Source of the DNA: Geosporobacter ferrireducens
GTDB lineage: Bacteria > Bacillota > Clostridia > Peptostreptococcales > Thermotaleaceae
Assembly (NCBI RefSeq): GCF_001750685.1
Contig: NZ_CP017269.1
Span: 1,715,416-1,779,415, forward strand
Length of the DNA: 64,000 nucleotides
Reading direction: 5' to 3'
The translations under genes were made by a program, and so were the position numbers. Below the pieces are notes generated by a model, which worked only from the letters and a program-made list of their open reading frames with translations, made no database searches and had not been told where the DNA came from. Shown piece by piece: positions 2,738 to 61,638 of this stretch (positions are counted from its first letter, which is position 1; each line of letters begins with the position of its first letter).

Positions 2738-4234
2738 TTATGCTGTTGCTTTCTTTTTAGTTTTAATCATTCTGCTAATGACCGGATAAAGAAGCATAAG
2801 CATACATGCAAGCAGTAAAGTAGCTGTGATAGGTTTTGAAATAACTGCCATAATATCTCCATTTGCAAGGGAAACAGCTCTTCTTAAATTGGCTTCTGTC
2901 ATCCCGCCAAGAACAAGTCCTAAAACGAGGGCCGCAGAAGAGAACTTAAATTTAGAAAAAGCGAATCCCAGTATGCCTGCGATAGCCATCAACATAACAT
3001 CACCCGTACTATTCTGAAGGGCGAAGCTGCCAATCACCGCAAATAGAACAATTGCCGGACCCAGAATGCTGTAGGGCACTTTAAGGATTGAACTAAAAAC
3101 TTTAGCGATTCCCATGGCGATGATAACCATGATAATATTTGTCACGATCATGGAAGCAAAGACACTGGAGAGATAATCAGGCTGCGTCTTAACAAGAAGC
3201 GGTCCAACCTGAACGCCCTTTAGAACTAGTGCCGACATCATGATGGCTGCCGCATTCCCTCCCGGTATACCCAAGGCAAGGAGTGGAACCATCGATCCGC
3301 CTGTAGCTGCATTATTTGCAGCCTCTGAAGCAGCTACCCCTTCAATGGCACCCTGACCGAATTTTTCAGGGTTCTTAGACATTTTTACTTCCGTTGTATA
3401 GCTTAAAAAAGATGCAATCGTCGCACCTGCTCCGGGCAAAATTCCAACAAGGGTACCAATAATGGAAGAACGGATAATCGTCCACTTAATAGACCATGCC
3501 TCTTTGAAGGTTAAAAGATCTGTTTTAACTTTAGAACCTGAACCCGTATCAACAAGCTTAGATGGTTTTGCAGTCTGTTTAAGCACTTCAGTGATAGCAA
3601 ACATACCGATCATAACCGGAATCATTTCTATACCACTGAGAAGAGAAGAATTCCCCCATGTAAATCGGGGAATCGCCAGCAATGGATCCATACCGACAGT
3701 GGCAAGCAAAAGACCAATCAATCCTGAAATAAGGGTTTTAATAACATTGTCACTGTCGAGGGCTGTAAGAACACTAAGTCCCAAGAAAGATACGGCAAAG
3801 AGTTCTGATGGCCCGAATTTAAGCGCTACATCTGCCAACTGAGGTGATAACAAAAACATGGCAACAGCAGCGACAACACCGCCTATCGCCGAGCAGACAA
3901 GGGATGTACCAAGCGCTTTGCCCGCCTTACCCTGCACAGCCAGAGGATAGCCGTCAAAAGTAGTTGGTGCACTGGAGGGTGTACCGGGAATTTTAAAAAG
4001 AATAGCTGTGATACCGCCTCCAGTGATCGATGCACAGTAAACAGCAACCAGGAAAGCAATGGCGATGATTGGGCTCATTGCATAGGCAAAAGGCATCGCT
4101 AAAGCTACTGCCATTGAAGCACTTACGCCAGGCATTGCACCAAAGATAACACCTAAAACTGTACCTGCACAGATAAGAAGAAAAGTCATTGGCGCAAATA
4201 CAATTTGAAAACCTGCAACTAACATATCACCCAT
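2738..4234 (-). CDS. tctA: Tripartite tricarboxylate transporter large permease TctA
   Basis: 498 residues with about twelve membrane segments, matching the TctA family length. Family landmarks are visible: the early GAMPGVSASMAVALAMPF stretch, GTPSSAPTTFDGYPLA near residue 82 and ALGIPGGNAAAIMM near residue 325. It forms the membrane channel of a secondary, ion-driven TTT transporter with TctB and the binding protein TctC encoded just upstream. Start ATG is preceded by GGGAGTG. Because the operon begins with citrate lyase, citrate or a related tricarboxylate (isocitrate, aconitate, tricarballylate) is the likely substrate. Confidence 0.92.
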   Translation of the reverse strand: MGDMLVAGFQIVFAPMTFLLICAGTVLGVIFGAMPGVSASMAVALAMPFAYAMSPIIAIAFLVAVYCASITGGGITAILFKIPGTPSSAPTTFDGYPLAVQGKAGKALGTSLVCSAIGGVVAAVAMFLLSPQLADVALKFGPSELFAVSFLGLSVLTALDSDNVIKTLISGLIGLLLATVGMDPLLAIPRFTWGNSSLLSGIEMIPVMIGMFAITEVLKQTAKPSKLVDTGSGSKVKTDLLTFKEAWSIKWTIIRSSIIGTLVGILPGAGATIASFLSYTTEVKMSKNPEKFGQGAIEGVAASEAANNAATGGSMVPLLALGIPGGNAAAIMMSALVLKGVQVGPLLVKTQPDYLSSVFASMIVTNIIMVIIAMGIAKVFSSILKVPYSILGPAIVLFAVIGSFALQNSTGDVMLMAIAGILGFAFSKFKFSSAALVLGLVLGGMTEANLRRAVSLANGDIMAVISKPITATLLLACMLMLLYPVISRMIKTKKKATA

Positions 4235-4253
4235 AATTTACACTCCCTATCTG

Positions 4254-4757
4254 TTAAAATGATTCCAGCATCAGCGCAAAATCACGTAGGATTCCATATC
4301 CTCTAGGCAGCATAATGCTCAGACCCCTAGCGAATAAAAAATATACCGAAAATGTCATGACAAATGCGCTGCCTGCTAAAAACTTAATTCGCTTTTCTCC
4401 GATTAATCTAGCATAGACAATGAAGAAAATATAAGTGCTGAGTATAAAACCTGCTGCTTCAAGGGAAGCGGCATAGACAAGAATGATGACAATCCCTTGA
4501 AAGAGTCTGCTTCTCAAAATCGCCTGCAACTTTATGTTTTTAATCTGATCGAAGTTACGTTCTTCAGCCGCTGCAGTTTTATAGATTTTGAACATATTAA
4601 TTAAGATTAAAACAATAAGGCCACTTAGAATAAGCTGCGGCCATTGCTCTGCCCCTAACTCTGTAGGTGCAGAAGCTGGCATTGTAGCGCCAATATAATA
4701 ATAGCAGTAGGCGAATAAAATCAATAAAACTGCATTATATAATAACTCAAGTATCAA
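4254..4757 (-). CDS. tctB: Tripartite tricarboxylate transporter small permease TctB
   Basis: 167 residues, four predicted membrane segments, the typical TctB size and layout. It lies 19 bases upstream of tctA and downstream of tctC, the usual C-B-A order. The only reasonable start in frame is a TTG at 4757 with a rather distant AAGGAAAG, so translation initiation may be weak. A strong palindromic hairpin separates it from tctC. Confidence 0.85.
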   Translation of the reverse strand: MILELLYNAVLLILFAYCYYYIGATMPASAPTELGAEQWPQLILSGLIVLILINMFKIYKTAAAEERNFDQIKNIKLQAILRSRLFQGIVIILVYAASLEAAGFILSTYIFFIVYARLIGEKRIKFLAGSAFVMTFSVYFLFARGLSIMLPRGYGILRDFALMLESF

Positions 4758-4794
4758 AATCCATCAACTCACTTTCCTTATAATCTAGGAATCC

Positions 4795-4814
4795 GGGGCA
4801 GCATATGCTGCCCC
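4795..4814 (-). other. Intercistronic hairpin between tctC and tctB
   Basis: Perfect palindrome with arms GGGGCAGC (4795-4802) and GCTGCCCC (4807-4814). There is no U-tract directly after it in the direction of transcription. By analogy with other binding-protein operons, it may protect the tctC message or reduce read-through into the permease genes. Confidence 0.6.
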
Positions 4815-4842
4815 AGAGCTTTCAATATTTTTATAGGCTCTA

Positions 4843-5847
4843 TTATTTGTTAAACTTATTAAATAAAGCTGTGAGTGTTTCGTTTTGTTCTGTCCAAATT
4901 GCTTGGAAGTCTGCGGAATTTGCATAGCCAGGTCTTTGATCCAATGCAACAGTTTTTGTCCACTCCTGGAATTGGTCACTTGCATGTGCTTTTGCAGCTG
5001 CTGCTTCAAATGCCTTAATTGCTGCTTCAGGTGTTCCTTTTTTCGCCAAAATACCTCTCATTGGTCCAAGGTAGGATTCAATACCTTTCTCTCCCGTGCA
5101 CGCAACATCCGGAATCATAGGAAGTCTCTTTTCAGAAGCAACAATAATCGGCTTCATATCTCCTGATTCTACCAGACCTTTAACCTCAGCCGGTCCAACA
5201 GTGGCAAGATCTACATGCCCGCCAATGATGGCTGCATTAACCTCTGCCCCATTGTTAAAAGCTACAAGTGGAACCTCTACGCCTGCCTCTGAAAATGTTT
5301 CTCTAACCGTGAATGCATCTACTCCCGTAACCGTCATAACACCACACTTAACTTTTCCTGGATTTTCTTTTATGTAGGCTACCAACTCATCAAAATTATT
5401 GTAAGGCGCTTTTCCAGATGCCACAATAACATTGGTATCATGAACCAATCTTGTTACAGGTATAAGTTCTTCATAAATATCAACGGAAGAAAGTTTTTGA
5501 ATGTTCGCAAGAAGAAGAGACTGTGTCCCAAGCATAAAGGTATATCCATCAGCTGGCTGCTTAACTGTGTATTCTACACCCTTAACGCCACCGCCGCCTT
5601 CTACATTGTTGACAACAATTGGAACGCCAATTTCTTTCTCAAGTGCAGAAGCAAAAGCTCTAAGCGTAGAATCTGCTCCACCGCCAGCGCCCCATGGACA
5701 AACAAGTTCGATCTTTCTCTCAAATTTGAATTCAGCATCTGCTGCACCTTCAGCATTGTTGACTTCTGGCGCTTTTGGAGCACATCCCATTAAAGCAGCT
5801 GTAAATATCAAAACCAGGCACATCAATAAAACGAGTCTTTTTTTCAT
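4843..5847 (-). CDS. tctC: Tripartite tricarboxylate transporter substrate-binding protein TctC (lipoprotein)
   Basis: 334 residues. An N-terminal lipoprotein signal ends in LMGC with the lipidated cysteine at residue 22, as expected for an extracytoplasmic receptor in a Gram-positive cell. The mature part shows the TTT receptor hallmark VCPWGAGGGADSTLR and later GGHVDLATVGPAEV. The start at the third codon of the longer frame is preferred because AAAGGAGG sits 8 bases upstream; ATG at 5853 is the alternative. First gene of the tctCBA group, 93 bases after the aconitase-like gene. Confidence 0.9.
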   Translation of the reverse strand: MKKRLVLLMCLVLIFTAALMGCAPKAPEVNNAEGAADAEFKFERKIELVCPWGAGGGADSTLRAFASALEKEIGVPIVVNNVEGGGGVKGVEYTVKQPADGYTFMLGTQSLLLANIQKLSSVDIYEELIPVTRLVHDTNVIVASGKAPYNNFDELVAYIKENPGKVKCGVMTVTGVDAFTVRETFSEAGVEVPLVAFNNGAEVNAAIIGGHVDLATVGPAEVKGLVESGDMKPIIVASEKRLPMIPDVACTGEKGIESYLGPMRGILAKKGTPEAAIKAFEAAAAKAHASDQFQEWTKTVALDQRPGYANSADFQAIWTEQNETLTALFNKFNK

Positions 5848-5940
5848 TTTCATTTCCTCCTTTTTTTATTTATTTAGAATGCTTACCCTCCTTAGAAAAC
5901 AGCATTCAATAAATACGCCTTTTCTATCCCTGTACTAAGA

Positions 5941-34758: not shown

Positions 34759-35181
34759 TTACAGGAGTCTCGCTCCAAGTTTTTTGCAAGCATCCAAATT
34801 CTGATCTGCCGGTTCTAAATTTACAATTAAGCCCTCCGCGATCAGATTTGCTCCATAACCCTTCATTCTTTCTTCCCAATCTCTCATCCATTCACCATCT
34901 CCCCAATCATAAGAACCGAAAAGGACTAATGGTTTACCAGTTACTACTTTTTCTAAGGACTGTACAAAGGGTTCCATTTCGCTTTCTTCCAGAACTTCTG
35001 CCCCCATAGAAGGACAACCTAAAGCAACCCCATCAGCATTCATCACATCTTCTACGGAGGCTTTGTCTACACTTAATAGTTTCACCTCGTTATTATCTCC
35101 TTGTGCGCCCTCTGCAACAGCTTTTGCCATCATCTCTGTATTCCCGGTACCGCTCCAGTAAATCACTGCTATCTTTTTCAA
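34759..35181 (-). CDS. Flavodoxin
   Basis: 140 residues, flavodoxin length. FMN phosphate loop WSGTGNTEMMA, second loop GCPSMGAEVLEE and third loop FGSYDWGDGEWM are characteristic. Start is taken as the TTG at 35181: the upstream in-frame ATG (35199) is part of the sequence that forms the AAGGAGG ribosome binding site. Lies 60 bases after a cysteine-rich small gene that has a Fur-like site upstream, so it is probably induced by iron limitation as a ferredoxin substitute. Confidence 0.92.
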   Translation of the reverse strand: MKKIAVIYWSGTGNTEMMAKAVAEGAQGDNNEVKLLSVDKASVEDVMNADGVALGCPSMGAEVLEESEMEPFVQSLEKVVTGKPLVLFGSYDWGDGEWMRDWEERMKGYGANLIAEGLIVNLEPADQNLDACKKLGARLL

Positions 35182-35241
35182 ATCAAATACCTCCTTCATA
35201 TTGTTTATAATGATTTAACTACCAACCTTATGTAGATACAA

Positions 35242-35771: not shown

Positions 35772-36179
35772 ATGGCATATAAAGACCTACAGGATTTTAG
35801 CAGGCATTTGGATGAAAAAAGCTTACTGAAAAGAATAAAAATAGATATAGATTCAGAGCTGGAGATTACTGAAATAGCTGATAGGCTATCTAAGCAGTAT
35901 GGCCCTGCTCTTTTATTTGAAAATGTAAAAGTATCTCCCTTCCCTGTGCGAATCCATGCAATGGGCGCCTGCAAAAGAATATGTACAGCTCTTGGAGATA
36001 TAATTCTATCAGAAGGGCTATTAAATGCCCTAGCTCATGATGGGCATAAAATGGGTATAGATGCTGCGAAAAAGTGGACAAGCGAAGGACATGGGAGAAA
36101 ATGGCCGGAGGATATTGAAATGACAAAGGATATGAAAGAACTTGTTTCAAAAAGATGGGCTGAATATGGTATTCACTAA
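35772..36179 (+). pseudogene. ubiD: UbiD-family decarboxylase with a large internal in-frame deletion
   Basis: 135 residues where UbiD proteins have about 430-490. Residues 1-75 match the UbiD N-terminus (YKDLQDFSRHLDEKSLLKRI, EITEIADRLSKQYGPALLFENVK). Residues about 85-135 match the UbiD C-terminus (HKMGIDAAKKW, WPEDIEM, RWAEYGI). The central prenylated-FMN binding and catalytic parts are missing, yet the frame stays open. It cannot be an active decarboxylase as read. Directly upstream of, and overlapping, the prenyltransferase gene. It may be a deletion allele, an assembly error, or a repurposed short protein. Confidence 0.7.
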
Positions 36180-37035
36180 GGCAATTAAAAAGATTCAGGA
36201 TTATGGAATCCTTGTCATGTTCTCCCATACGGTTTTTTCTCTGTCTTTCGCTCTTATTTCAATGCTTCTGGCTAGTAATGGACTGCCCTCCCTCCGTACA
36301 GTATTCTGGATATTTATTGCTTTTATGGGTGCCCGGACCGGTGCGAATGCCATCAATAGAGTAATTGATGCGGAGATAGATGCCAAAAATCCCCGTACTG
36401 CTTTGAGGCAGCTGCCGCAGGGCTTGCTGCAAAAGAAAGAAGTTATCCTTTTTACAGCAGCTTGCTTCTCTGTTATGATAATTGCAGCCGCTATGCTCAA
36501 TCCTTTATGTGTACTGCTTTCTCCTATAGCCCTATTTCTAATGACCATTTATTCCTATACAAAACGCTTTACTTGGACCTGTCATTTAATTTTGGGCATA
36601 ACCTGCGCCGCCGCACCTGTAGGCGCTTGGCTTGCAGTCACCGGAAAGCTTTCATGGCTCCCCTTATTTATGGGGGCCGCAAACACCTTATGGGTTGCCG
36701 GCTTTGACATCATTTACGGTTCACAGGATTATGACTTTGACACCGCCAATGGGATATATTCAATTCCATCAAGATTTGGTGTAAAAAATGCCTTGCATAT
36801 TGCTGCACTTTTTCATGGAATAACGCTGGTTCTGCTCGCCATTGTGGGTTCTTTAAGCAATCATTTTGGCATAATTTATTATACAGGACTGGCGATTATA
36901 GCGATCTTGTTTGTGATGCAGCATAAAATGGTTTCACCCGATAATCTGTCCAATGTAAAGCTCGCTTCCTATAGCGTCAATCAATTGGTCAGCATCATTT
37001 TTCTAATCTGCGGTTCCATAGACATCCTAATCTAA
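36166..37035 (+). CDS. UbiA-family prenyltransferase (MqnP-like)
   Basis: About 289 residues, eight or nine membrane segments. Both aspartate-rich, Mg-prenyl-diphosphate motifs are intact: NAINRVIDAEIDAKNPRT near residue 60 and DIIYGSQDYDFDTANG near 178. The FDIIYGxQDYxFD and GIYSIPSRFG signature resembles the prenyltransferase of futalosine-type menaquinone synthesis. The ATG at 36166 overlaps the ubiD stop; no strong ribosome binding site, so coupling is likely. It would join a polyprenyl chain to an aromatic acid, with ubiX next. Confidence 0.88.
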   Translation: MVFTKAIKKIQDYGILVMFSHTVFSLSFALISMLLASNGLPSLRTVFWIFIAFMGARTGANAINRVIDAEIDAKNPRTALRQLPQGLLQKKEVILFTAACFSVMIIAAAMLNPLCVLLSPIALFLMTIYSYTKRFTWTCHLILGITCAAAPVGAWLAVTGKLSWLPLFMGAANTLWVAGFDIIYGSQDYDFDTANGIYSIPSRFGVKNALHIAALFHGITLVLLAIVGSLSNHFGIIYYTGLAIIAILFVMQHKMVSPDNLSNVKLASYSVNQLVSIIFLICGSIDILI

Positions 37036-37057
37036 TCTACTTTCAAGGAGTGTTAGC

Positions 37058-37633
37058 GTGAAAAAAATAGTAGTAGGCATCACTGGTGCCAGTGGCAGCA
37101 TCTATGCCAAAGTATTGATTGAGGAACTTTTGAAAAGAGGTATCTATACCCATGTCATATTTACAGACAATGGGAAAAAAGTTATGCAATATGAGACATC
37201 CTTGGATATAGAAAAATGGATGAAATTATTAAAAGAAAAGTATAACCATATCAAAGCAGAGGATATAAACAATCTGTTTTCCGGAGTCGCCAGCGGCTCC
37301 TATAAATTTGATGCTGTCATAGTCCTTCCCTGCTCCATGGGGACTCTCGCAGAAATCAGTAATGGTTTATCTAAAAATCTATTATGCAGAGTGGCCGATG
37401 TGGCTTTAAAGGAAAACAGAAAACTGGTTATCGTTCCCAGGGAAACGCCGCTGAATGCAATACATCTTGAAAACATGCTGAAACTGTCAAAGCTGGGGGT
37501 TACAATACTTCCTGCCATACCTGGGTTTTATCATAAGCCTGAAACCCTGGATGACTTAGTCAATTTTGTAGTTGGAAAGATTCTGGATAATCTTTCAATT
37601 GAAAATGAATTGTTTAAAAAATGGGAGGGCTAG
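37058..37633 (+). CDS. ubiX: Flavin prenyltransferase UbiX
   Basis: 191 residues. GITGASGSIYA is the FMN loop, VLPCSMGTLAEIS the central motif, and VPRETPLNAIHLENMLKLSKLG with PGFYHKP the prenyl-phosphate site. UbiX makes prenylated FMN, the cofactor of UbiD decarboxylases. Its intact state contrasts with the gutted ubiD two genes upstream, suggesting that another UbiD enzyme in the cell uses the cofactor. AAGGAG upstream of the GTG start. Confidence 0.95.
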   Translation: MKKIVVGITGASGSIYAKVLIEELLKRGIYTHVIFTDNGKKVMQYETSLDIEKWMKLLKEKYNHIKAEDINNLFSGVASGSYKFDAVIVLPCSMGTLAEISNGLSKNLLCRVADVALKENRKLVIVPRETPLNAIHLENMLKLSKLGVTILPAIPGFYHKPETLDDLVNFVVGKILDNLSIENELFKKWEG

Positions 37634-37636
37634 AAA

Positions 37637-38593
37637 ATGTTAAAATTTAAAAAAATATTCACCATACTGATTGCTTCCGTATTCCTCTTCGCTATATCCG
37701 CTTGTTCATCACCAAAGGAAACTCCTGCTAGTCAAACATCAAAACAAACCTTAAATATAGGTGCTATATCTTCTATAGATGTAATCCCCATTATTATGGC
37801 TGCTGAAAAAGGATACTTTGAAAAAGAAGAAGTGGCAGTTAACTTTCAGCCCTTTAAAAGTGCAAAGGATCGGGATGCCGCTTTTCAAAGTGGAAATCTG
37901 GATGGAATCATTTGTGATGTGGTAGCAGTCAGTCTTTATCAAAATGCTGATTTCGACGTAAAAATCACAGGTATTACCGATGGAGATTTTATGCTGATAG
38001 CAAATCCCAACTCCGGGATAAAGGCTATAAATGATCTCATTGGTAAAAGCATAGCGATTTCAGAAAAAACTTGTATTGAATACACTCTGGATAAAATATT
38101 GAAAAAAAACGCTTTGGAGCCTAATGATGTCCAAAAGTCCATGGTTCCACCCATACCTACCCGGCTTGAAATGTTAAGAACCAATAATGTAGACACAGCA
38201 CTGCTTCCTGAGCCATTCTCTACCCTTGCTATCCAAGACGGAGGAATACTTCTGGGAAGTGCAAACCAAGAAGGCTTCTATCCTTCAGTGACCGCCTTTA
38301 CACAGCAGGCAATCAATACAAAGCCTAACGAAATCAAAGCATTTTACAAAGCCTATAATGAGGCGGTAGATTATATTAATAATACGCCTATTGCGGAATA
38401 TGAAGATATCATTATAAAAACCGTCGGATATCCTGAGGATATGAAAGGCAAAATTACCTTACCTGTCTTTAGAAAAAATATGCTTCCATCCGAAGAGGAC
38501 ATTCAGTCTGTCATCAATTGGGCTGTCGAAAATGGCCTTGTTCAGAAAACACTCAACCCCAAAAACTTACTGAATGATATAGGTATTCAATAA
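37637..38593 (+). CDS. ABC importer substrate-binding lipoprotein (SsuA/THI5-like)
   Basis: 318 residues with a lipoprotein signal (ISAC, lipidated Cys23) and a type II periplasmic-binding fold: IIMAAEKGYFEKEEVAVNF, IPTRLEMLRTNNVDTALLPEPFS. Starts 3 bases after ubiX and forms a complete importer with the next two genes. The NMT1/SsuA-type family carries sulfonates, thiamine precursors and aromatic acids. Close linkage to prenyltransferase and ubiX suggests import of an aromatic quinone precursor, which is inference. Confidence 0.85.
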   Translation: MLKFKKIFTILIASVFLFAISACSSPKETPASQTSKQTLNIGAISSIDVIPIIMAAEKGYFEKEEVAVNFQPFKSAKDRDAAFQSGNLDGIICDVVAVSLYQNADFDVKITGITDGDFMLIANPNSGIKAINDLIGKSIAISEKTCIEYTLDKILKKNALEPNDVQKSMVPPIPTRLEMLRTNNVDTALLPEPFSTLAIQDGGILLGSANQEGFYPSVTAFTQQAINTKPNEIKAFYKAYNEAVDYINNTPIAEYEDIIIKTVGYPEDMKGKITLPVFRKNMLPSEEDIQSVINWAVENGLVQKTLNPKNLLNDIGIQ

Positions 38594-38611
38594 TATGGTT
38601 GGAGGTATCCT

Positions 38612-39367
38612 ATGCTTGAAATAGAAGAACTCTCTGTCGGTTACCGCTCCGGAAAAAAGATGATCCACGCTTTAGGCCCTATAAACCTTAAAATAACACC
38701 GGGGGACATCTATGCACTTATAGGGCCCTCCGGCTGCGGTAAATCTACCTTTCTCCATGTACTGAGCGGTATCACCAAAGATTATCAGGGGAAAGTAACC
38801 CTTAAAGGAGAAGGCCTTGACCCTAAAAAACAGGATATTGGATTTATACCGCAAAACTTTGGGCTGCTTCCCTGGAAGAATGTTCAAAAGAATTGCCGCC
38901 TCTCTCTGAAGATCAAAAAACAAAACATCGACCCTCTTCTGGCAGAGAGAATGGATTATATCATGGATAAACTGAATATCCGATCATTGCAAGACAGGTA
39001 CCCGAGGGAATTAAGCGGAGGTCAAAAACAAAGGGTGGCTATCGCCAGAGCCTTTATCATGAATCCGGATTTGTTACTAATGGACGAGCCCTTTTCTGCT
39101 TTAGATGCCCTTACAAGAGAAGAAGCCCAGGAACTTTTCATTGACATATGGAACCAGTATAAAACAACAACCCTATTTGTAACCCACAGCATTGAAGAGG
39201 CGATTTACATGGGTAAAAAGATTGTAATCATGTCCCACTGTCCCGGTACAGTCGTTGAAATCATCGATAATCCTCTTTTTAATACTGAAAACTTAAGAGA
39301 AAATGAAGAATACCTTAAATTATCCACACATCTGAGAAATGTGGTGAAAAAGGGATGGAAAATATGA
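38612..39367 (+). CDS. ABC importer ATPase
   Basis: 251 residues. Walker A GPSGCGKST (about residues 38-46), Q-loop IPQNFGLLPWKN, signature LSGGQKQR, Walker B LLLMDEPFSALD and H-loop VTHSIEEA are all intact. Taurine/nitrate/sulfonate-type ATPase. Its 3' end overlaps the permease gene by 13 bases. GGAGG precedes the ATG. Confidence 0.95.
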   Translation: MLEIEELSVGYRSGKKMIHALGPINLKITPGDIYALIGPSGCGKSTFLHVLSGITKDYQGKVTLKGEGLDPKKQDIGFIPQNFGLLPWKNVQKNCRLSLKIKKQNIDPLLAERMDYIMDKLNIRSLQDRYPRELSGGQKQRVAIARAFIMNPDLLLMDEPFSALDALTREEAQELFIDIWNQYKTTTLFVTHSIEEAIYMGKKIVIMSHCPGTVVEIIDNPLFNTENLRENEEYLKLSTHLRNVVKKGWKI

Positions 39368-40125
39368 AGGCAAGAAAAAAAATAAAGATATTCCTACAGG
39401 GCTTTATGCTATTTAATATCTTATGGTATATCCTTGCAGTCCTCGTCAATATGCGAGTGCTGCCAAAACCTGCAGATGTATATCTAAATATGAATCAACT
39501 ATATGGAGAAAAGCTTTATATCCATGTTTTTGTGAGTCTCTACCGGGTACTGGGAGGATTGGCTATATCCCTGGTATTAGGAATCTCTATAGGCCTGCTT
39601 ATGGCTTATTCAAGGATAGGAAATAAACTATTGAATCCTTTAGTATATTTTACATATCCTATACCCAAAACTGCCTTGCTGCCGGTAGTCATGCTGTTAT
39701 TTGGATTGGGAGACCGCTCCAAAATTATCTTAATCGTACTCATCTTAGTATTTCAGGTTATCGTAGCGGTAAAAGATGCTATACTGAATATTTCACCGGA
39801 AACCTACCATCCCATAAAAAGCCTGGGTGCTTCAAGGCTTCAAATATTTACACATATAACGGTGCCTGCTATTTTACCGGAGCTGCTTACGAATCTCAGG
39901 TTATCCATAGGAACTGCCCTCTCCATATTATTTTTTGCTGAAGGTTATGGAACACAGTATGGCATCGGCTATTACATCCTCGATGCATGGATGAGAATCG
40001 ATTACATCGGAATGTATGCAGGCATTATCGTCATAAGTCTTTTGGGCTTTGCACTATTTATTTTAATTGACCTTCTTGAGGAAGCAGTATGCAAATGGAA
40101 GGTTAAGCTACCTTATTCACTATAA
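39355..40125 (+). CDS. ABC importer permease
   Basis: 256 residues, about six membrane segments. The cytoplasmic coupling motif (SPETYHPIKSLGASRLQIFTHITVPAILPELL) is the EAA loop that docks on the ATPase. BPD_transp_1 family of the SsuC/TauC type. Its TAA overlaps an ATG of the U32 gene, suggesting a single transcript and coupling. Confidence 0.93.
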   Translation: MENMKARKKIKIFLQGFMLFNILWYILAVLVNMRVLPKPADVYLNMNQLYGEKLYIHVFVSLYRVLGGLAISLVLGISIGLLMAYSRIGNKLLNPLVYFTYPIPKTALLPVVMLLFGLGDRSKIILIVLILVFQVIVAVKDAILNISPETYHPIKSLGASRLQIFTHITVPAILPELLTNLRLSIGTALSILFFAEGYGTQYGIGYYILDAWMRIDYIGMYAGIIVISLLGFALFILIDLLEEAVCKWKVKLPYSL

Positions 40126-40142
40126 TGTCTCGAGGTGAGGAT

Positions 40143-42080
40143 ATGTCAAGATTCTTTAACGGTAAAAAGATAGAGCTGTTAGCTCCCGCAGGAACAATGG
40201 AAACTTTTAAAAGTATGGTGCAGGCAAATTGTGATGCGATTTATTTTGGCGGCAAGATTTTAAATATGAGAATGATCCGGAAAGGATTTAACTTCTCAAA
40301 TGAAGAAATCCATGAAGCTGCAGCAATGGCCCATGCAGTTAATAAGAAAGTTTATGTCACGGTAAATAATCTGCTGAATGATTATGAAATCGGTGAAGCC
40401 GCTGAATACCTGCAGTTTCTGCAGAACATACAGGTTGACGGCATTATCATTCAGGATTTAGGGATTTTACAAATTTGCAAGGAGCAAAATTTAAATAAAT
40501 TTGAAATTCATTCTTCCGTTATGATGAATGTACATAATATCGAATTTGTAAAAGTGCTGAAGGGATTTGGCGTATCCAGGGTCGTATTATCCAGGGAAAT
40601 GGACCTGAAGACTGCAAAAAACCTTCAAAATGAGACAGGCATTGAAACAGAGTACTTTGTACACGGTGATATGTGTACCGTCAACGGTGCAAATTGCTAT
40701 TACAGCTCTTTTATTTGGGGCAACAGCTCTAACCGGGGGCGGTGCTTTAAACCGTGCAGGTGGCCCTACCGTGTAAAAAAGGATGGTGTTGTCTTCCCAA
40801 CAGAATATCCCCTTGCGGCAAAGGATATGTATATGTATGAACATATCCCCGAACTGATTGAAGCCTCTGTTACTTCATTTAAGATAGAAGGCCGTATGCG
40901 GGATACTGATTTTATTGTGGATTTAGTGAATACCTATGGAGAAGCAATTGACCGGTATATAGGCGATCCCCTAGGCTTTGACCGCAAAAAGTATGCAGGA
41001 GAACTGTTTGAGAACAGGAAACGTGATTTTACTACTGCCTATGCTTTCACAAAACCCGGTTTGGACTTCATCAATACCCGATACGAAGGTACAGGCAAGT
41101 TTTATTCCACCGGTAAAGTTTTTTCTACGCCTACGGAAGAACCGGAACTGACAGATCCTGTTATCAACAGGATTCAGGCTGAACTAAGCAAACATTCCGG
41201 TCAATCCGTCTCAAAACACAATTTGTCGGTAAAAGTAAATAATTATATCCAGGCAAAACTTTGTATAGGATTAGGCGTAGACCGTATTTATCTGCCCTGT
41301 GAAGTTTTACGTCCCGACCAGTTTATAACATTGGAACAGCTCCAGCATTTGGCCAGTATAAAAAATACTACCGAGCTTTATCTTGATTTGCCTCAAATGA
41401 TGGATGAACTGCAGTTTGATAAGCTAGATCATTATTTAGGAAAACATGGATACCTGTTTGACGGATTATTGGTTTCCAATTTGGGTGCTGTAAAAAGATA
41501 CGGTCATCAGCACAGAATTGTGACCAATTACAACGTAAACATTTATAACCATAAAGCAATGGAATTCTATCAGGATCTGGGTGTTAGCGAATGTACCGTA
41601 TCTATAGAGACAAAAGTCGATGAACTGGTCAAATTCATCGCCCTGTCCAAAAATCCTTTAGAACTCATAGTCCATGGTCCACTAAGAGTTATGTACTTGG
41701 ATCATAATCTTTATGAAAATGCAAAAGCATTCAAGCCCATTGAACAAGGCGATAATCAATATGTAGACAACAGTATATTGGTATTGATGACAGATCGAGG
41801 TGAAAATCCGGTTTACATAGATCAAAACATGAAAAACCACCTATTTACCGCGAAAGAGTTCTGCTTGCTTCCCATTCTCAACCATTTGAATTTTGATAAA
41901 CCGGTAGGTTTTCGCATTGAGGGCCAAACCTATACACCAGACGAATTAAAAAATATCATTGAAGTTTACCAAAAGGCTATAGCCGATCCATCCAGGTGTA
42001 AAAACCTATTTTTAGGTATGAAATCCTCAAGAGCCGGTTTTACTGCAGGCTCACTATCTTATAAGTTCAATATAGAATAG
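40143..42080 (+). CDS. Double U32-family protein (RlhA/UbiU-UbiV-like fusion)
   Basis: 645 residues. The first half (about 8-300) is a U32 domain: ELLAPAGTMETFKSMVQANCDAIYFGG and four cysteines (Cys178, 185 in MCTVNGANC, Cys201, 205 in GRCFKPC) that fit the U32 Fe-S site. The second half (about 360-600) is a second U32-like barrel (YLPCEVLRPDQF, DGLLVSNLGAVKRYG, LELIVHGPLRVMYLDHNL), without the matching cysteine set. ATG at 40143 follows AGGTGAGG. U32 proteins act in RNA hydroxylation (RlhA), tRNA modification (TrhP) and oxygen-independent quinone hydroxylation (UbiU/UbiV). Context points to the last. Confidence 0.82.
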   Translation: MSRFFNGKKIELLAPAGTMETFKSMVQANCDAIYFGGKILNMRMIRKGFNFSNEEIHEAAAMAHAVNKKVYVTVNNLLNDYEIGEAAEYLQFLQNIQVDGIIIQDLGILQICKEQNLNKFEIHSSVMMNVHNIEFVKVLKGFGVSRVVLSREMDLKTAKNLQNETGIETEYFVHGDMCTVNGANCYYSSFIWGNSSNRGRCFKPCRWPYRVKKDGVVFPTEYPLAAKDMYMYEHIPELIEASVTSFKIEGRMRDTDFIVDLVNTYGEAIDRYIGDPLGFDRKKYAGELFENRKRDFTTAYAFTKPGLDFINTRYEGTGKFYSTGKVFSTPTEEPELTDPVINRIQAELSKHSGQSVSKHNLSVKVNNYIQAKLCIGLGVDRIYLPCEVLRPDQFITLEQLQHLASIKNTTELYLDLPQMMDELQFDKLDHYLGKHGYLFDGLLVSNLGAVKRYGHQHRIVTNYNVNIYNHKAMEFYQDLGVSECTVSIETKVDELVKFIALSKNPLELIVHGPLRVMYLDHNLYENAKAFKPIEQGDNQYVDNSILVLMTDRGENPVYIDQNMKNHLFTAKEFCLLPILNHLNFDKPVGFRIEGQTYTPDELKNIIEVYQKAIADPSRCKNLFLGMKSSRAGFTAGSLSYKFNIE

Positions 42081-42092
42081 GGGTGTTATTAT

Positions 42093-43376
42093 ATGCATTA
42101 TATAGGTCCTGATGCTATCATTACAAAAAGACAAGAATATTTTTTCCCGGCCACCGCTCATTTTTACAAAGAGCCTCCTCAGATCGTCGGAGGATCTATG
42201 CAGTATCTTTTTGATCACAACAATAAAAAGTATGTTGATTTCTTTGCGGGCGTATCGGTCATGAACTGCGGACACTCAAATCCGCAGATTCTGAAAGATA
42301 CAATCGAACAATTAAACAACATACAACACACGACTACCGTATATCTAACACAGCCTATGGTGGAACTGGCTCAAAGACTTGCAGAAATATTTCCAGGAGA
42401 TATAAAAAGAACCTTCTTTTGCGTAACCGGATCAGAAGCAAACGAAGGGGCCATGGCATTAGCGCGGTTATATACGAAAAAAAATGGATTTATTGCGCTA
42501 ACCGGAGGCTTGCACGGCAGGACTCATTTAACCCTGAGTGTTACAGGAATACCCATGTGGCGGTTAGATGACCATTTAGTGAAAGAAAATATTTTCTTCA
42601 TTGAACGGCCTTATTCTGCTGACTCCAGCTATGAAGAAGCAATGGATAAATCTTTACAGCAATTGGATGCAGTCCTAAAAAGCCAGGGAAATGAACTCTG
42701 TGCTATGCTGGTAGAACCGATCCAAGGAAACGGCGGCATCATCATGTATCCTAAAAATTATTTAAAGAAAGTAAAAACCCTGCTGGAAGTGCATAATGTA
42801 TTGCTCATTGCCGATGAAGTACAAACAGGTTATGGAAGGACCGGCAAAATGTTTTGCATAGAACACTACGATGTGGTTCCGGATATTATCGTTACTGCAA
42901 AAGCCCTGGGCAATGGAATCCCAATCTCTACCTTTTCAACCACCGATGAAATTGCGAAAGCCTATAACAGACCCTCTGCCTCTACCTTCGGCGGAAATCC
43001 TGTGGCTGCGCAAACCGCACTCAGTGTTCTTCATTACATTGAGGAAAATAATTTGGTTCAAAGATCAAATGAGCTGGGAAAATATCTAAAACAGAAATTA
43101 GAACAAATAGCCTCTCCCTTGATTCAGGAAGTAAGAGGGTGCGGCCTTATGCTAGGGGTGCAGATTCAATCGCCCAGTTCCTCTGTCACATCAGCTGAGA
43201 TTACGGACATCATTTTAGAGGAGATGAAAGACAGGGGTTTTATCATTGGAAAAAATGGCTTAAACAGGGATGTCATTGCTTTTCAACCGCCGCTTGTCAT
43301 TTCTAAAGAAGACATTGATGCTATGGTGGTCAGTATGGAAGCCGTTCTCGAACAAATCTCCTTCTTATATGTATAG
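42093..43376 (+). CDS. Class III PLP-dependent aminotransferase (AGXT2/GABA-transaminase type)
   Basis: 427 residues. CVTGSEANEGAMALAR, LHGRTH, VEPIQGNGG, LLIADEVQTGYGRTGKMF and VTAKALGNGIPIS (Schiff-base lysine in AKALGNG) are all present. Starts 12 bases after the double-U32 gene with GGGGTG upstream, so it belongs to the same run. Class III enzymes act on omega-amino acids, alanine-glyoxylate, ornithine and similar; no specific substrate can be read here. Confidence 0.9.
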   Translation: MHYIGPDAIITKRQEYFFPATAHFYKEPPQIVGGSMQYLFDHNNKKYVDFFAGVSVMNCGHSNPQILKDTIEQLNNIQHTTTVYLTQPMVELAQRLAEIFPGDIKRTFFCVTGSEANEGAMALARLYTKKNGFIALTGGLHGRTHLTLSVTGIPMWRLDDHLVKENIFFIERPYSADSSYEEAMDKSLQQLDAVLKSQGNELCAMLVEPIQGNGGIIMYPKNYLKKVKTLLEVHNVLLIADEVQTGYGRTGKMFCIEHYDVVPDIIVTAKALGNGIPISTFSTTDEIAKAYNRPSASTFGGNPVAAQTALSVLHYIEENNLVQRSNELGKYLKQKLEQIASPLIQEVRGCGLMLGVQIQSPSSSVTSAEITDIILEEMKDRGFIIGKNGLNRDVIAFQPPLVISKEDIDAMVVSMEAVLEQISFLYV

Positions 43377-58514: not shown

Positions 58515-60038
58515 TTATTTTACTACGGACTTAACCGTACTATTTCTGTATCTAACAACAGCTGCCTTTATTGCAGGATAAAATAAAGAAATTCCTGTAA
58601 AAATAATCAGAATAAATGTCACAGGTCTTGTAAAAAAAATTGAGTAGCTGCCTTGTGACATTACTAAAGCTCTACGCATATTTGATTCAAGCATTCCCCC
58701 TAGAAGCAGCCCTAATATAAATGGGCCAGGTGCATAACCGCCGCGTTTGAATACAAAACCCAAGAATCCTGCTGCTACCATAATCATCACATCAAAAAAG
58801 CTGTTATTTAGAGCATAAGAACCTACTACGCAGAGAATCATAACAGAAACCCATACGGTTTCTTTACGAACATTTAATACTCTTGCAGATAGTTTTGCTG
58901 TCAAAAGTCCAAAAACGAATATAATCAAGTACGCAAGAAGCATTAACAACATTATATTTATTACAAATGGTTTATTCTCTGTAAACATTTTGGGCCCTGG
59001 CTGCATCCCATACATCATCAGTGAACCGATCAAAATTGCACTAACAGTATCTCCTGGAATTCCCAATGTCAGCATGGTTGTAAGGGCGCCTCCAATAACG
59101 CCATTATTTGCCGCACAACTTACCGCAAGTCCCTCTATCGAACCATTTCCATATTCTTCAGGGTGTTTTGAAGTTTTCTTTGCTTGTCCCCAGCAGATAA
59201 TAGAGGCTATATCCCCGCCTGCCGCCGGTACAGCTCCAACAACAGAAGCAACTATAGATGCAATCAATGTTGGTTTAGCAAGTTGTAATGCCTCCCCTTT
59301 CGTCGGGATAACTCTTCCAAGCTGAAGATTCTTTCTCTTTTCTGTTTCTTCACGCTTTTCAAGTTCCCAGTTTCGTTCAAAAATTTGAGACAGTACCTCC
59401 CCAATGCCAAACATGCCAATCATAATCGGTAAAAATGAGATGCCTGCAACTAAGCTTGTAGAACCCATGGTAAATCTTTTCGTAGCCAATATGGGGTCAA
59501 TGCCTATAGTTGATAAAAGCAATCCGCAAAATCCTACGATCAAACCCTTAATCACTGAATTTTCGGATACCGCTATCATCATAGACAGTCCAAATAATGC
59601 CAGGGCAAAATACTCCGAAGGTCCAAATTTTATTGCAAATTTTGCAAGCGGAAAAGAAAATAGAATTAAAACAATGGTACTTATTACTCCACCAAATACA
59701 GAATAAATCACATTTATTCCCAATGCCAAGCCACCCTGTCCTTTTTTATACAGACTATATCCATCAAAAGTTGAGGCGATTGAAGCCGGCGTTCCTGGCG
59801 TATTGATTAGGATGGCTGATATACCTCCTGCAAATATTGCAGCATTCCAAAGACCAATCAGCATTGCAAAGCCTTCTGCCGGGCTGAACCAAAATGTAAG
59901 GGGTGTTAGTATTGCAATAGCCATCGTTGCAGACAACCCTGGAAGTGAGCCTACAATTGTTCCTACGATAACGCCAATGAAAGTGCAAAAGATAACCATC
60001 GGCTGTAATATATCCATCAAACCTGTAATCCATTCCAT
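58515..60038 (-). CDS. tctA: TTT transporter large permease TctA (second set)
   Basis: About 507 residues, twelve membrane segments. GTIVGSLPGLSATMAIAILTP, NTPGTPASIASTFDGYSL and LGIPGDTVSAIL correspond to TctA landmarks. The ATG at 60038 has AGGAGG 8 bases before it. Clearly paralogous to the gene at 2738-4234 but divergent. Follows TctB by 12 bases. Linkage to KDG metabolism suggests that it carries a sugar acid rather than a tricarboxylate. Confidence 0.92.
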   Translation of the reverse strand: MEWITGLMDILQPMVIFCTFIGVIVGTIVGSLPGLSATMAIAILTPLTFWFSPAEGFAMLIGLWNAAIFAGGISAILINTPGTPASIASTFDGYSLYKKGQGGLALGINVIYSVFGGVISTIVLILFSFPLAKFAIKFGPSEYFALALFGLSMMIAVSENSVIKGLIVGFCGLLLSTIGIDPILATKRFTMGSTSLVAGISFLPIMIGMFGIGEVLSQIFERNWELEKREETEKRKNLQLGRVIPTKGEALQLAKPTLIASIVASVVGAVPAAGGDIASIICWGQAKKTSKHPEEYGNGSIEGLAVSCAANNGVIGGALTTMLTLGIPGDTVSAILIGSLMMYGMQPGPKMFTENKPFVINIMLLMLLAYLIIFVFGLLTAKLSARVLNVRKETVWVSVMILCVVGSYALNNSFFDVMIMVAAGFLGFVFKRGGYAPGPFILGLLLGGMLESNMRRALVMSQGSYSIFFTRPVTFILIIFTGISLFYPAIKAAVVRYRNSTVKSVVK

Positions 60039-60050
60039 AATGCCCACCTC

Positions 60051-60503
60051 CTAAATAACAAACTGTACTCTGAGCAGCATATTAAATACAAAATAAATTA
60101 GACCTACAAACAGTACTGTATAAACCGCATTAAATTTAAGTGTTCTTTCATAGGTCCAGTTTAAAAATAGAGAAATCGATGCTGCTGCAATTAAAAATGT
60201 TGTTAGCTTCCATAAAGCTAAAAATACCAAAATTGCAAAAACAGTTGTGAAAAAAAGTTTTTTATTCTTTTTTTGTGCATCCTCTAATTTAAAGTATTCA
60301 AAACTTCCATTTGCTTTTATTCCTCTTATAAAAAGAATCAACCCAAATACAACAACCATCAAGGCCATAATAAATGGAAAAAAACCCGGGCCTGGAACAC
60401 CATCTGAGGTTGGCGATGCTATTCCGAGACTTAAAGAGGGGAATATGAAAAGTCCGCCTAGTATTACAAATAATACACCTGGTATCGTATCTCCCTTAAA
60501 CAT
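60051..60503 (-). CDS. tctB: TTT transporter small permease TctB (second set)
   Basis: 150 residues, four membrane segments; the GDGVPGPGFFPF-like loop (TSDGVPGPGFFPFIMALM) is a typical TctB feature. AAGGAGG precedes the ATG. A strong hairpin lies between it and tctC, as in the first tct operon. Confidence 0.88.
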   Translation of the reverse strand: MFKGDTIPGVLFVILGGLFIFPSLSLGIASPTSDGVPGPGFFPFIMALMVVVFGLILFIRGIKANGSFEYFKLEDAQKKNKKLFFTTVFAILVFLALWKLTTFLIAAASISLFLNWTYERTLKFNAVYTVLFVGLIYFVFNMLLRVQFVI

Positions 60504-60528
60504 AGTTCCTCCTTAATATGAACGTATA

Positions 60529-60548
60529 GGGTGAGAATTTTCTCACCC
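60529..60548 (-). other. Intercistronic hairpin between tctC and tctB (second set)
   Basis: GGGTGAGA (60529-60536) and TCTCACCC (60541-60548), loop of four, without a U-run. Same position as the hairpin at 4795-4814 in the first set. Confidence 0.6.
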
Positions 60549-60558
60549 TGTGCTTTAA

Positions 60559-61551
60559 TTACTTTTTCTGCGCAATACCTAGCTTTGGAATTAATTCTGC
60601 ATACATTTCAAGCTGCTTCTTTGCAATGGCATCCATTTCTGCCCCCGGTAGATATGCAAATTCGAAACCCCGTTCTGCAAGTAGTTTTTTCACAGCATCC
60701 GAATTTATAGCTGTTTTAGCAGCCTCTTCAAGAATCTCCACGACTTCTTCCGGTGTATCTTTCGGTACCGCAAAGCTTCCCCAGGCTTGCGCTACAACAT
60801 CAATGCCTTGTTCTTTTGCCGTATGTACATCCGGAATAATGCTGGATCTCTCTTCTCCGAGAACTGCCAATACCTTAAATTCACCGCCATCAACACCGGC
60901 TTTTACCTCTGACGGGCTTACCGTAACTGCATCTATATTCCCACCCATAAGTGCAGCCACTGCTGGTGCTCCACCTTCAAAAGGCACATGTGTAAACTTG
61001 CTGTCATTTGCTTGCTCCAACAAAGCTGCAGAAATATGCCAAATAGAGCCGGTTCCTGAATTTCCCACAAGAATTTTTCCTGGGTTTGCTTTTGCATCAG
61101 TCAAAAATTCTTCTAATGTATTCCACTTTGCATCCTTACGAACAGTTACAGACGCCGGAATAGTCATTGCACGTGCAAAAAACGCAAAGTCATTGCTTGT
61201 CAAATCAGTCAGTCCCAATGCACTGATCATTGTAGATTCTACCGGCATATAGGCTATGGTGTACCCGTCTGCTGTACTATTTTTAACAAACTCTAATCCA
61301 ACTGCGCCGGAAGCCCCTGTTTTGTTTGTAACGATAACAGGCTTGCCTAAGCTTTTTTCAAGCTCTTGGGCAAAAATTCTTGCAACGGTATCTGATGCAC
61401 CGCCTGGTGAATACGGCACTACCAGGGTGAGCTGTTTGGTTGGAAAATCTGTTTTCCCTCCTGTACTCTTTGTTTGTGTACAACCTGTGAATAGGGCAAG
61501 GACAATGACAAGTACCGTTATAATGGGTAAACTGCTTCTTAATTTTTTCAT
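60559..61551 (-). CDS. tctC: TTT transporter substrate-binding lipoprotein TctC (second set)
   Basis: 330 residues, lipoprotein signal ending in LFTGC. LVVPYSPGGASDTVARIF and GGNIDAVTVSPSEV are TctC landmarks. ATG at 61551 follows GGGAGGA. Likely binds the sugar acid imported for the KDG/KDPG enzymes. First of the transporter genes downstream of the aldolase. Confidence 0.92.
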   Translation of the reverse strand: MKKLRSSLPIITVLVIVLALFTGCTQTKSTGGKTDFPTKQLTLVVPYSPGGASDTVARIFAQELEKSLGKPVIVTNKTGASGAVGLEFVKNSTADGYTIAYMPVESTMISALGLTDLTSNDFAFFARAMTIPASVTVRKDAKWNTLEEFLTDAKANPGKILVGNSGTGSIWHISAALLEQANDSKFTHVPFEGGAPAVAALMGGNIDAVTVSPSEVKAGVDGGEFKVLAVLGEERSSIIPDVHTAKEQGIDVVAQAWGSFAVPKDTPEEVVEILEEAAKTAINSDAVKKLLAERGFEFAYLPGAEMDAIAKKQLEMYAELIPKLGIAQKK

Positions 61552-61638
61552 GTAATTTCCTCCCAATATCCTTAAATTTATGTAGTCAATGCAAAATAAA
61601 TTTTAATTCTATTTGATTACACGGTTTAAATGAAACGT

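Follow-up and report, generated by a model that had tools for sequence, protein, structure and literature searches.

Gene content of the cluster and its conservation

The window considered here is a stretch of 64,000 nucleotides from Geosporobacter ferrireducens (contig NZ_CP017269.1, positions 1,715,416 to 1,779,415 of the forward strand), whose genome comprises 5.8 Mb in two contigs. At positions 35772-43376 it carries a cluster of eight plus-strand open reading frames (ORFs) in which genes of the UbiD, UbiA and UbiX types stand together with an ATP-binding cassette (ABC) importer, a double U32 protein and an aminotransferase. Judged from its sequence, it is reasonably probable that this cluster represents a salvage variant of the late futalosine pathway of menaquinone synthesis (MqnP-MqnL-MqnM) that possesses its own importer. 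All eight ORFs listed in an earlier note on this DNA are present, and the families assigned there (N-terminal part of UbiD, UbiA, UbiX, SsuA/NMT1-like lipoprotein, ATPase, permease, U32 and class III aminotransferase) were upheld. The genes are as follows:

35772..36179, plus strand: ubiD (mqnL-type), much of its interior deleted in frame (PF20695, UbiD_N only, 58.6 bits)
36166..37035, plus strand: UbiA-family prenyltransferase, MqnP-like, of its own clade (PF01040, 198 bits; TIGR01475, 299.8 bits, above the cut-off of 180.8)
37058..37633, plus strand: UbiX flavin prenyltransferase, MqnM-like (TIGR00421, 225.6 bits, above the cut-off of 108.9)
37637..38593, plus strand: lipoprotein substrate-binding protein (SBP) of the SsuA/NMT1/THI5 fold (PF13379, PF09084)
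38612..39367, plus strand: ABC transporter ATPase (PF00005)
39355..40125, plus strand: ABC transporter permease, TauC/SsuC-like (PF00528)
40143..42080, plus strand: double-barrel U32 protein (PF01136, two matched stretches)
42093..43376, plus strand: class III pyridoxal phosphate-dependent aminotransferase (PF00202, 342 bits)

A TTG at 36142 is also possible as the start of the UbiA ORF, as is an ATG at 40125 for the U32 ORF; the better starts are probably the ATGs at 36166 and 40143, at each of which several homologues begin. The product of UbiX is prenylated flavin mononucleotide (prFMN) for UbiD.

A UbiA-based scan of named genomes gave 178 confirmed loci, of which 80 were kept, namely the 32 with the closest UbiA (L097-L128) and 48 with a more distant, MqnP-type UbiA (L129-L176). 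Genes at these loci were counted by tblastn on DNA, since the calling of longest ORFs misses genes hidden by longer ORFs on the opposite strand. Among the 32 closest loci, SBP was identified in 30, UbiD in 28 (including one contig-edge fragment at L121), the ATPase and the permease in 26 each, UbiX in 24, and U32 and the aminotransferase in 14 each, with L106 having only another type of UbiD. At most of them the SBP gene lies directly after that of UbiX or UbiA. By contrast, none of the 48 more distant loci has SBP, permease, U32 or aminotransferase. The neighbourhood survey that the earlier note had suggested thus found the genes to be co-conserved among relatives across many genera of largely anaerobic bacteria, including Clostridium, Lutispora, Sedimentibacter, Caloramator, Herbinix, Caproiciproducens, Halanaerobium and several Bacilli, and the gene set is more than a chance grouping.

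A survey of the order covered 297 genomes, with an E value of 1e-20 or better as the threshold for SBP. SBP was found in 34 of these, a match to the N-terminal part of UbiD (UbiD-N) in 21, and both in 20. In the regions fetched for these 20 genomes and for genome G111, UbiD and UbiA stand together in all except G111, and most of the regions also hold UbiX, ATPase and permease, with SBP at the same locus or nearby. UbiX is lacking at the fetched loci of G043, G008 and G020, and the SBP of G020 lies on another contig. In G111 the SBP, ATPase, permease, U32 and aminotransferase genes occur together, with UbiA and UbiX on another contig. These 21 genomes and the 31 genomes of L098-L128 make up the 52 cluster genomes referred to below, for which 12 MqnP genomes, hand-picked from the 48 other loci, served as controls.

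Prenyltransferase, decarboxylase and early quinone-synthesis markers

In a tree in which identical rows were counted once, the 52 cluster UbiAs form one clade apart from MqnP, with support of 99/97 (bootstrap not fully settled). The window UbiA scores 292.3 bits on the MqnP model NF041586 (cut-off 430), below which the MqnPs found beside MqnL in two Peptococcaceae also fall (351.8 and 342.7 bits), and it reaches 292 bits on MqnP_DT against 131 on ubiA_proteo, standing closer to the MqnP-type and general models than to that of proteobacterial UbiA. The window UbiX passes the MqnM/UbiX model TIGR00421. On TIGR03701, the model for the menaquinone biosynthesis decarboxylase (cut-off 495.9), two intact cluster UbiDs score 655.1 and 631.6 bits, level with the MqnLs beside MqnP in two Peptococcaceae (663.7 and 669.5 bits); neither passes the model built for UbiD of E. 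coli (434 and 390 bits against a cut-off of 788). The UbiD scores, taken together with the leaning of UbiA to the MqnP type, point to a naphthoate-type rather than a benzoate substrate for UbiA and UbiD.

These scores also bear on a different proposal, in which a benzenoid precursor resembling 4-hydroxybenzoate would be imported, prenylated, decarboxylated, hydroxylated by U32 and aminated by the aminotransferase to give a rhodoquinone- or ubiquinone-like benzoquinone. Such a product would be in keeping with the full-length alignment of intact cluster UbiD with E. coli UbiD (2idb, 401 bits), with the oxygen-independent hydroxylation of ubiquinone rings described for U32 relatives (PMC6747719) and with the tie between the U32-aminotransferase pair and the cluster. 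However, the intact UbiD exceeds the cut-off of the menaquinone-type model (655 against 496) and not that of the E. coli model (434 against 788), and UbiA prefers the MqnP-type model by the margin given above, which makes a benzenoid route quite improbable.

The late futalosine module MqnP-MqnL-MqnM has itself been predicted (PMC4746308). The cluster resembles it in that genes of the UbiA, UbiD and UbiX types lie next to one another and that the intact UbiD passes TIGR03701, and differs from it in the linked ABC importer, in the separate UbiA clade and in the lack of a strong MqnA/D match in 50 of the 52 genomes.

As regards ubiD in the window, the earlier note had described a remnant, which is correct insofar as the protein is truncated; both protein ends are nevertheless kept and are fused in frame, with 341 internal codons gone. 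The ORF encodes 135 amino acids, and its two ends match the intact 482-aa UbiD of Geosporobacter subterraneus, with residues 1-75 followed by the 341-residue jump and then by the C-terminal ~60 residues, where the alignment has another gap of six residues; the reading frame is kept throughout. On TIGR03701 this copy reaches 57.5 bits and does not classify as an MqnL-type decarboxylase. Between the two Geosporobacter species, the ratio of nonsynonymous to synonymous substitution (dN/dS) is 0.21 for the remnant, as compared with 0.07-0.15 for the remaining genes of the cluster, seven in number. The value for the remnant fits relaxed but not absent constraint, and the raised divergence speaks against an assembly slip. 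The short ORF overlaps the start of ubiA in the same manner as in G. subterraneus and, given that this overlap is preserved, the remnant may have been kept for translational coupling.

A search for other copies of ubiD, as the earlier note had recommended for a full-length one, gave two UbiD genes elsewhere in the genome. The first of these genes (L008:8708-10543) encodes 611 amino acids, is 82.6-84.9% identical to the cluster-adjacent UbiDs of L104 and L106, and is a candidate stand-in for the broken cluster UbiD; the second lies near a second UbiX. It is very improbable that the cluster is simply decaying in this genome and has no present function. Decay would account for the internal ubiD deletion with its raised dN/dS and for the failure to find ubiD in G111, but the other seven genes are strongly constrained between the two Geosporobacter genomes, the short ORF retains its overlap with the ubiA start, and two other UbiD genes are available.

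Two further observations on UbiD were made. Two Clostridium genomes have a highly conserved second type of UbiD (609-611 aa) next to the cluster (L104:3016-4845 and L106:13454-15283). UbiD is also split into two ORFs at L098:8565-10014 and L115:8315-10014, by a frameshift, a stop or a sequencing error.

The early routes of quinone synthesis were searched for by two markers, MqnA/D (PF02621) and MenD (TIGR00173, cut-off 244.2 bits). The lack of early menaquinone genes that the earlier note had observed in the window extends, for these markers, to the whole genome, in which there is no PF02621 match and the best MenD score is 71.4 bits. With neither MqnA/D nor a working cluster UbiD, the window copy is an incomplete member of the futalosine pathway. 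Strong MqnA/D matches were obtained in 2 of the 52 cluster genomes as against all 12 of the MqnP controls, the two being G312 (L113, Texcoconibacillus) and G323 (L124, a Bacillus metagenome-assembled genome, MAG), and 48 of the 52 lack both MqnA/D and MenD. Apart from L113 and L124, all of the 32 named loci have SBP. A genome-wide search for SBP, which covered 24 of the 64 cluster and control genomes, gave only background matches (27-28% identity) in G312 and G323, and matches in 6 of the 12 controls, mostly at background level. The mutual exclusion of MqnA/D and importer has a Fisher p of 0.0008 over the 52 genomes, though 21 of these were chosen for SBP; the 31 genomes for which UbiA was the sole criterion divide 29 to 2.

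In ten further cluster genomes there are weak PF02621 matches of 21.7-42.4 bits, nine of them over the Pfam cut-off. These were rejected as MqnA/D, as each of the ten proteins begins like a lipoprotein (judged by motif in eight, by eye in two) and is encoded near a gene for an ABC ATPase; permease-like ORFs were seen by eye near nine of them. The ten loci (L258-L267) represent a second ABC system, with the lipoprotein-like protein as its weak match to MqnA/MqnD. This system is probably another importer and could carry futalosine-route intermediates.

The binding protein, proposed precursor salvage and links to electron export

The predicted structure of SBP has a predicted local distance difference test score (pLDDT) of 90.9, and its fold neighbours include SsuA, TauA, PqqT, Thi5, MqnD and CmpA, with Z-scores of 27.2 for SsuA and 26.2 for PqqT. 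MqnD was considered as the nearest fold and set aside: it is present (2czl, Z 19.6) but ranks below SsuA, CmpA and PqqT, and the fold therefore does not pick the ligand. An alignment of 47 sequences, out of 52 rows, has R79, D80 and R176 among its invariant residues. The binding of an aromatic precursor by SBP is proposed here. PqqT (PDB 9b1u, 9ooz) offers a parallel, having the same fold (Z 26) and binding a quinone, pyrroloquinoline quinone (PQQ), whereas its sequence is only 16% identical to SBP; PqqT has a role in uptake.

The genomic setting of SBP bears on the possibility that the precursor is made in the cell by an unrecognised route and that the importer is merely a neighbour, which carries a sulfonate, pyrimidine or thiamin precursor. 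In favour of this, the best fold and sequence neighbours of SBP include binders of sulfonates, taurine and pyrimidines, and MenD is found in two importer-bearing genomes. We nonetheless regard it as unlikely, as SBP is present at 30 of the 32 loci picked by UbiA alone, mostly right after UbiX or UbiA, and at none of the 48 distant loci, as it scores 104 bits on the SsuA family (cut-off 163.5) and so does not classify as belonging to a sulfonate importer, and as the two cluster genomes with MqnA/D have background SBP matches alone.

Aromatic-precursor salvage followed by prenylation, as suggested in the earlier note, is thus the best reading on account of the co-conservation, the lack of an MqnA/D match and the lack of MenD over the cut-off; the part of that suggestion which assigned U32 to the UbiU/UbiV type was not retained (see below). 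Neither a loss of the gene grouping in other genomes, which the earlier note had held to be fatal to its proposal, nor a complete separate menaquinone pathway, which it had held to be so in combination with an unrelated ligand of the binding protein, was found in the searches made. Under the salvage reading, the lipoprotein and the ATPase/permease would import a soluble aromatic acid that other microbes give off, for which 1,4-dihydroxy-6-naphthoate or a closely related compound is the likeliest candidate. UbiA would then prenylate the imported acid, and UbiD, with the prFMN cofactor from UbiX, would decarboxylate the prenylated acid to a demethylmenaquinone-like carrier, which would be used as a membrane electron carrier and, in several relatives, by Ndh2 and for flavin-based extracellular electron transfer. 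The double U32 protein and the aminotransferase would be an optional add-on, probably modifying the ring or the precursor without oxygen. As the cluster UbiD is broken in the window, decarboxylation in this organism would be done by another UbiD or be skipped.

A number of observations weigh against salvage through this cluster. Concerning the decarboxylase, the window's own ubiD has lost 341 codons, the cluster-type UbiD is missing at L105, L106, L113 and L124, and a search with the remnant as query gave no UbiD match in G111. With regard to the importer, the SBP fold also fits binders of sulfonates, bicarbonate, pyrimidines and thiamin; SBP follows UbiX at L116 and L119, which belong to two Bacilli (Amphibacillus and Natronobacillus), with no cluster-type ATPase or permease found at either locus, and it occurs at L128 without a cluster-type ATPase. 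The control genome G333 has an SBP match of 31% identity and 124 bits. The presence of SBP is not independent in the 21 of 52 genomes that were selected for it. MenD exceeds its cut-off in two of the 52 genomes (G297 and G326), both of which bear the importer. The exclusion of MqnA/D and importer counts as one event, as the UbiAs of L113 and L124 are sisters from Bacilli; L113 moreover ends at a contig edge 150 bases past UbiA, so that its lack of SBP rests on the genome-wide search, and G312 and G323 each hold further UbiA genes, one of them near MqnA/D genes (with in-frame stops in G323). An isolated MenA-type prenyltransferase for 1,4-dihydroxy-2-naphthoate (DHNA) occurs outside the cluster in the window's genome (L007:8088-9080, 393.9 bits, above the cut-off of 289), by which DHNA would be usable without the cluster. 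Lastly, Ndh2, polyprenyl synthase and EetA/EetB are not beside the cluster in the window, a result for the locus only, as the genome was not searched for Ndh2.

Genes of the locus for flavin-based extracellular electron transfer comprise Ndh2, DmkA, DmkB, EetA, EetB and FmnB. At eight loci (L043, L045, L047, L115, L117, L125, L256 and L257), Ndh2 and a polyprenyl synthase occur in the same run as UbiD-UbiA, in which respect the cluster of these relatives resembles that locus; the window cluster differs in being without electron-export genes. In G106, G078, G057, G020 and G008 the cluster directly follows genes for an Ndh2-like NADH dehydrogenase, EetB and polyprenyl diphosphate synthase, with EetA also in the run in G078, G020 and G008. 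EetA was not detected in L043 and L047, and its count by tblastn on DNA is 5. The runs at L115, L117 and L125 consist of Ndh2, polyprenyl synthase, a second UbiA-like protein of ~300 aa, EetA and EetB, followed by UbiD-UbiA-UbiX and the importer. These three differ from the electron-transfer locus in that an MqnP-type prenyltransferase, UbiD, UbiX and the importer are added to a second gene of UbiA family or size, which was recognised at L117 as MenA-like (240 bits, below the cut-off of 289), at L115 as UbiA by Pfam, and at L125 by size and first residues. ApbE is found immediately before UbiD at L115 and L126, before SBP at L111, and upstream of the cluster at L109 with one opposite-strand gene between. 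Elsewhere in the window's genome, genes resembling EetA and EetB form a pair next to Rnf-like genes (a family match in the case of EetB, ORF reading for the others), and G. ferrireducens strain IRF9 is among the iron reducers listed in PMC9629499.

A comparable use of outside naphthoate has been described in Lactiplantibacillus plantarum, a quinone auxotroph that scavenges outside DHNA for electron transfer and for which the uptake pathways were in 2023 'yet to be identified' (PMC10746273); the cluster differs in its linked ABC importer. Its significance lies in the fact that importers of quinone precursors are stated to be undescribed in literature that includes the same article. The cluster would provide a specific candidate for such an importer, widely conserved and present in named Clostridia, together with a prediction of its ligand class, and would tie quinone sharing to extracellular electron transfer. 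No paper describing the cluster was recognised in a literature search whose coverage left out most subscription papers.

The double U32 protein, the aminotransferase and neighbouring genes

The double U32 protein had been likened in the earlier note to UbiU/UbiV, and this was not borne out: on the UbiU/UbiV models it scores 142.8 bits against a cut-off of 440 and 58.0 against 275, it reaches the curated cut-off of none of the U32 models that it matches, and it has a different cysteine pattern. One CX6CX15CX3C set, a generic U32 motif (PMC6747719), is invariant in 27 sequences (of 30 rows) and is confined to the first barrel, with no conserved cysteines in the second; the patterns of UbiU and UbiV (CX6CX16CX38C / CXnCX12CX3C) are absent. 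A UbiU-UbiV fusion is ruled out by the cysteines and the model scores. The protein is thus like UbiU/UbiV and TrhP in its U32 barrel and four conserved cysteines, and unlike them in the single set and the second barrel that is without one. A sequence search of solved structures with the protein or its alignment gave no match, and a fold search returned generic barrels, among which the U32 protein 5d88 ranked 13th.

The C-terminal half of the double U32 protein (>= 86 bits, ORFs of 621-702 aa) was found in 14 of the 297 genomes of the order, all of them among the 22 cluster genomes, and in none of the other 275 (p about 1e-18, uncorrected for relatedness). The 22 comprise G111 and the 21 genomes in which UbiD-N was matched; one of the 22, G094, lacks an SBP match and is outside the 52. 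Excluded from this count were 18 of the 32 matching genomes, with scores of <= 70.2 bits and ORFs of 311-336, 420 or 813-853 aa. Where a fetched locus contains the double U32, the neighbouring gene encodes an aminotransferase of the same type. In a few such loci the aminotransferase is split into two ORFs, as at L042:2950-4225 and L099, by a frameshift, a stop or a sequencing error.

The pair is optional, as it was not found with many intact clusters. U32 is present at the locus in five of the six cases in which UbiD is lacking or broken (the window, G111, L105, L113 and L124) and absent at L106; a tie between UbiD loss and the pair is not claimed, as 12 of the 20 other genomes of the order with a UbiD match have U32 too. 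That the pair would carry out an oxygen-independent hydroxylation of the ring or precursor, together with an amination, is a guess. A more far-reaching view, which we hold to be rather unlikely, is that SBP founds a family of dedicated ABC importers of quinone building blocks and that the pair makes from the imported ring, without oxygen, a new hydroxylated or aminated prenylquinone for electron export by strict anaerobes. At L124:9244-12059, in the Bacillus MAG, genes for U32, aminotransferase and UbiA are followed by genes that appear by eye to be NiFe-hydrogenase-like.

A search for known RNAs, riboswitches included, in the window and in L040, L101 and L117 gave one tRNA in L117 and nothing else. 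Just upstream of the cluster, on the minus strand at 34759-35199, is a gene that looks flavodoxin-like by eye, and a similar gene lies near the second importer in L258. Two three-gene sets resembling, by eye, tripartite tricarboxylate transporters are also located in the window at 2738-5853 and 58515-61566 (minus strand), one of which adjoins citrate-lyase-like genes.

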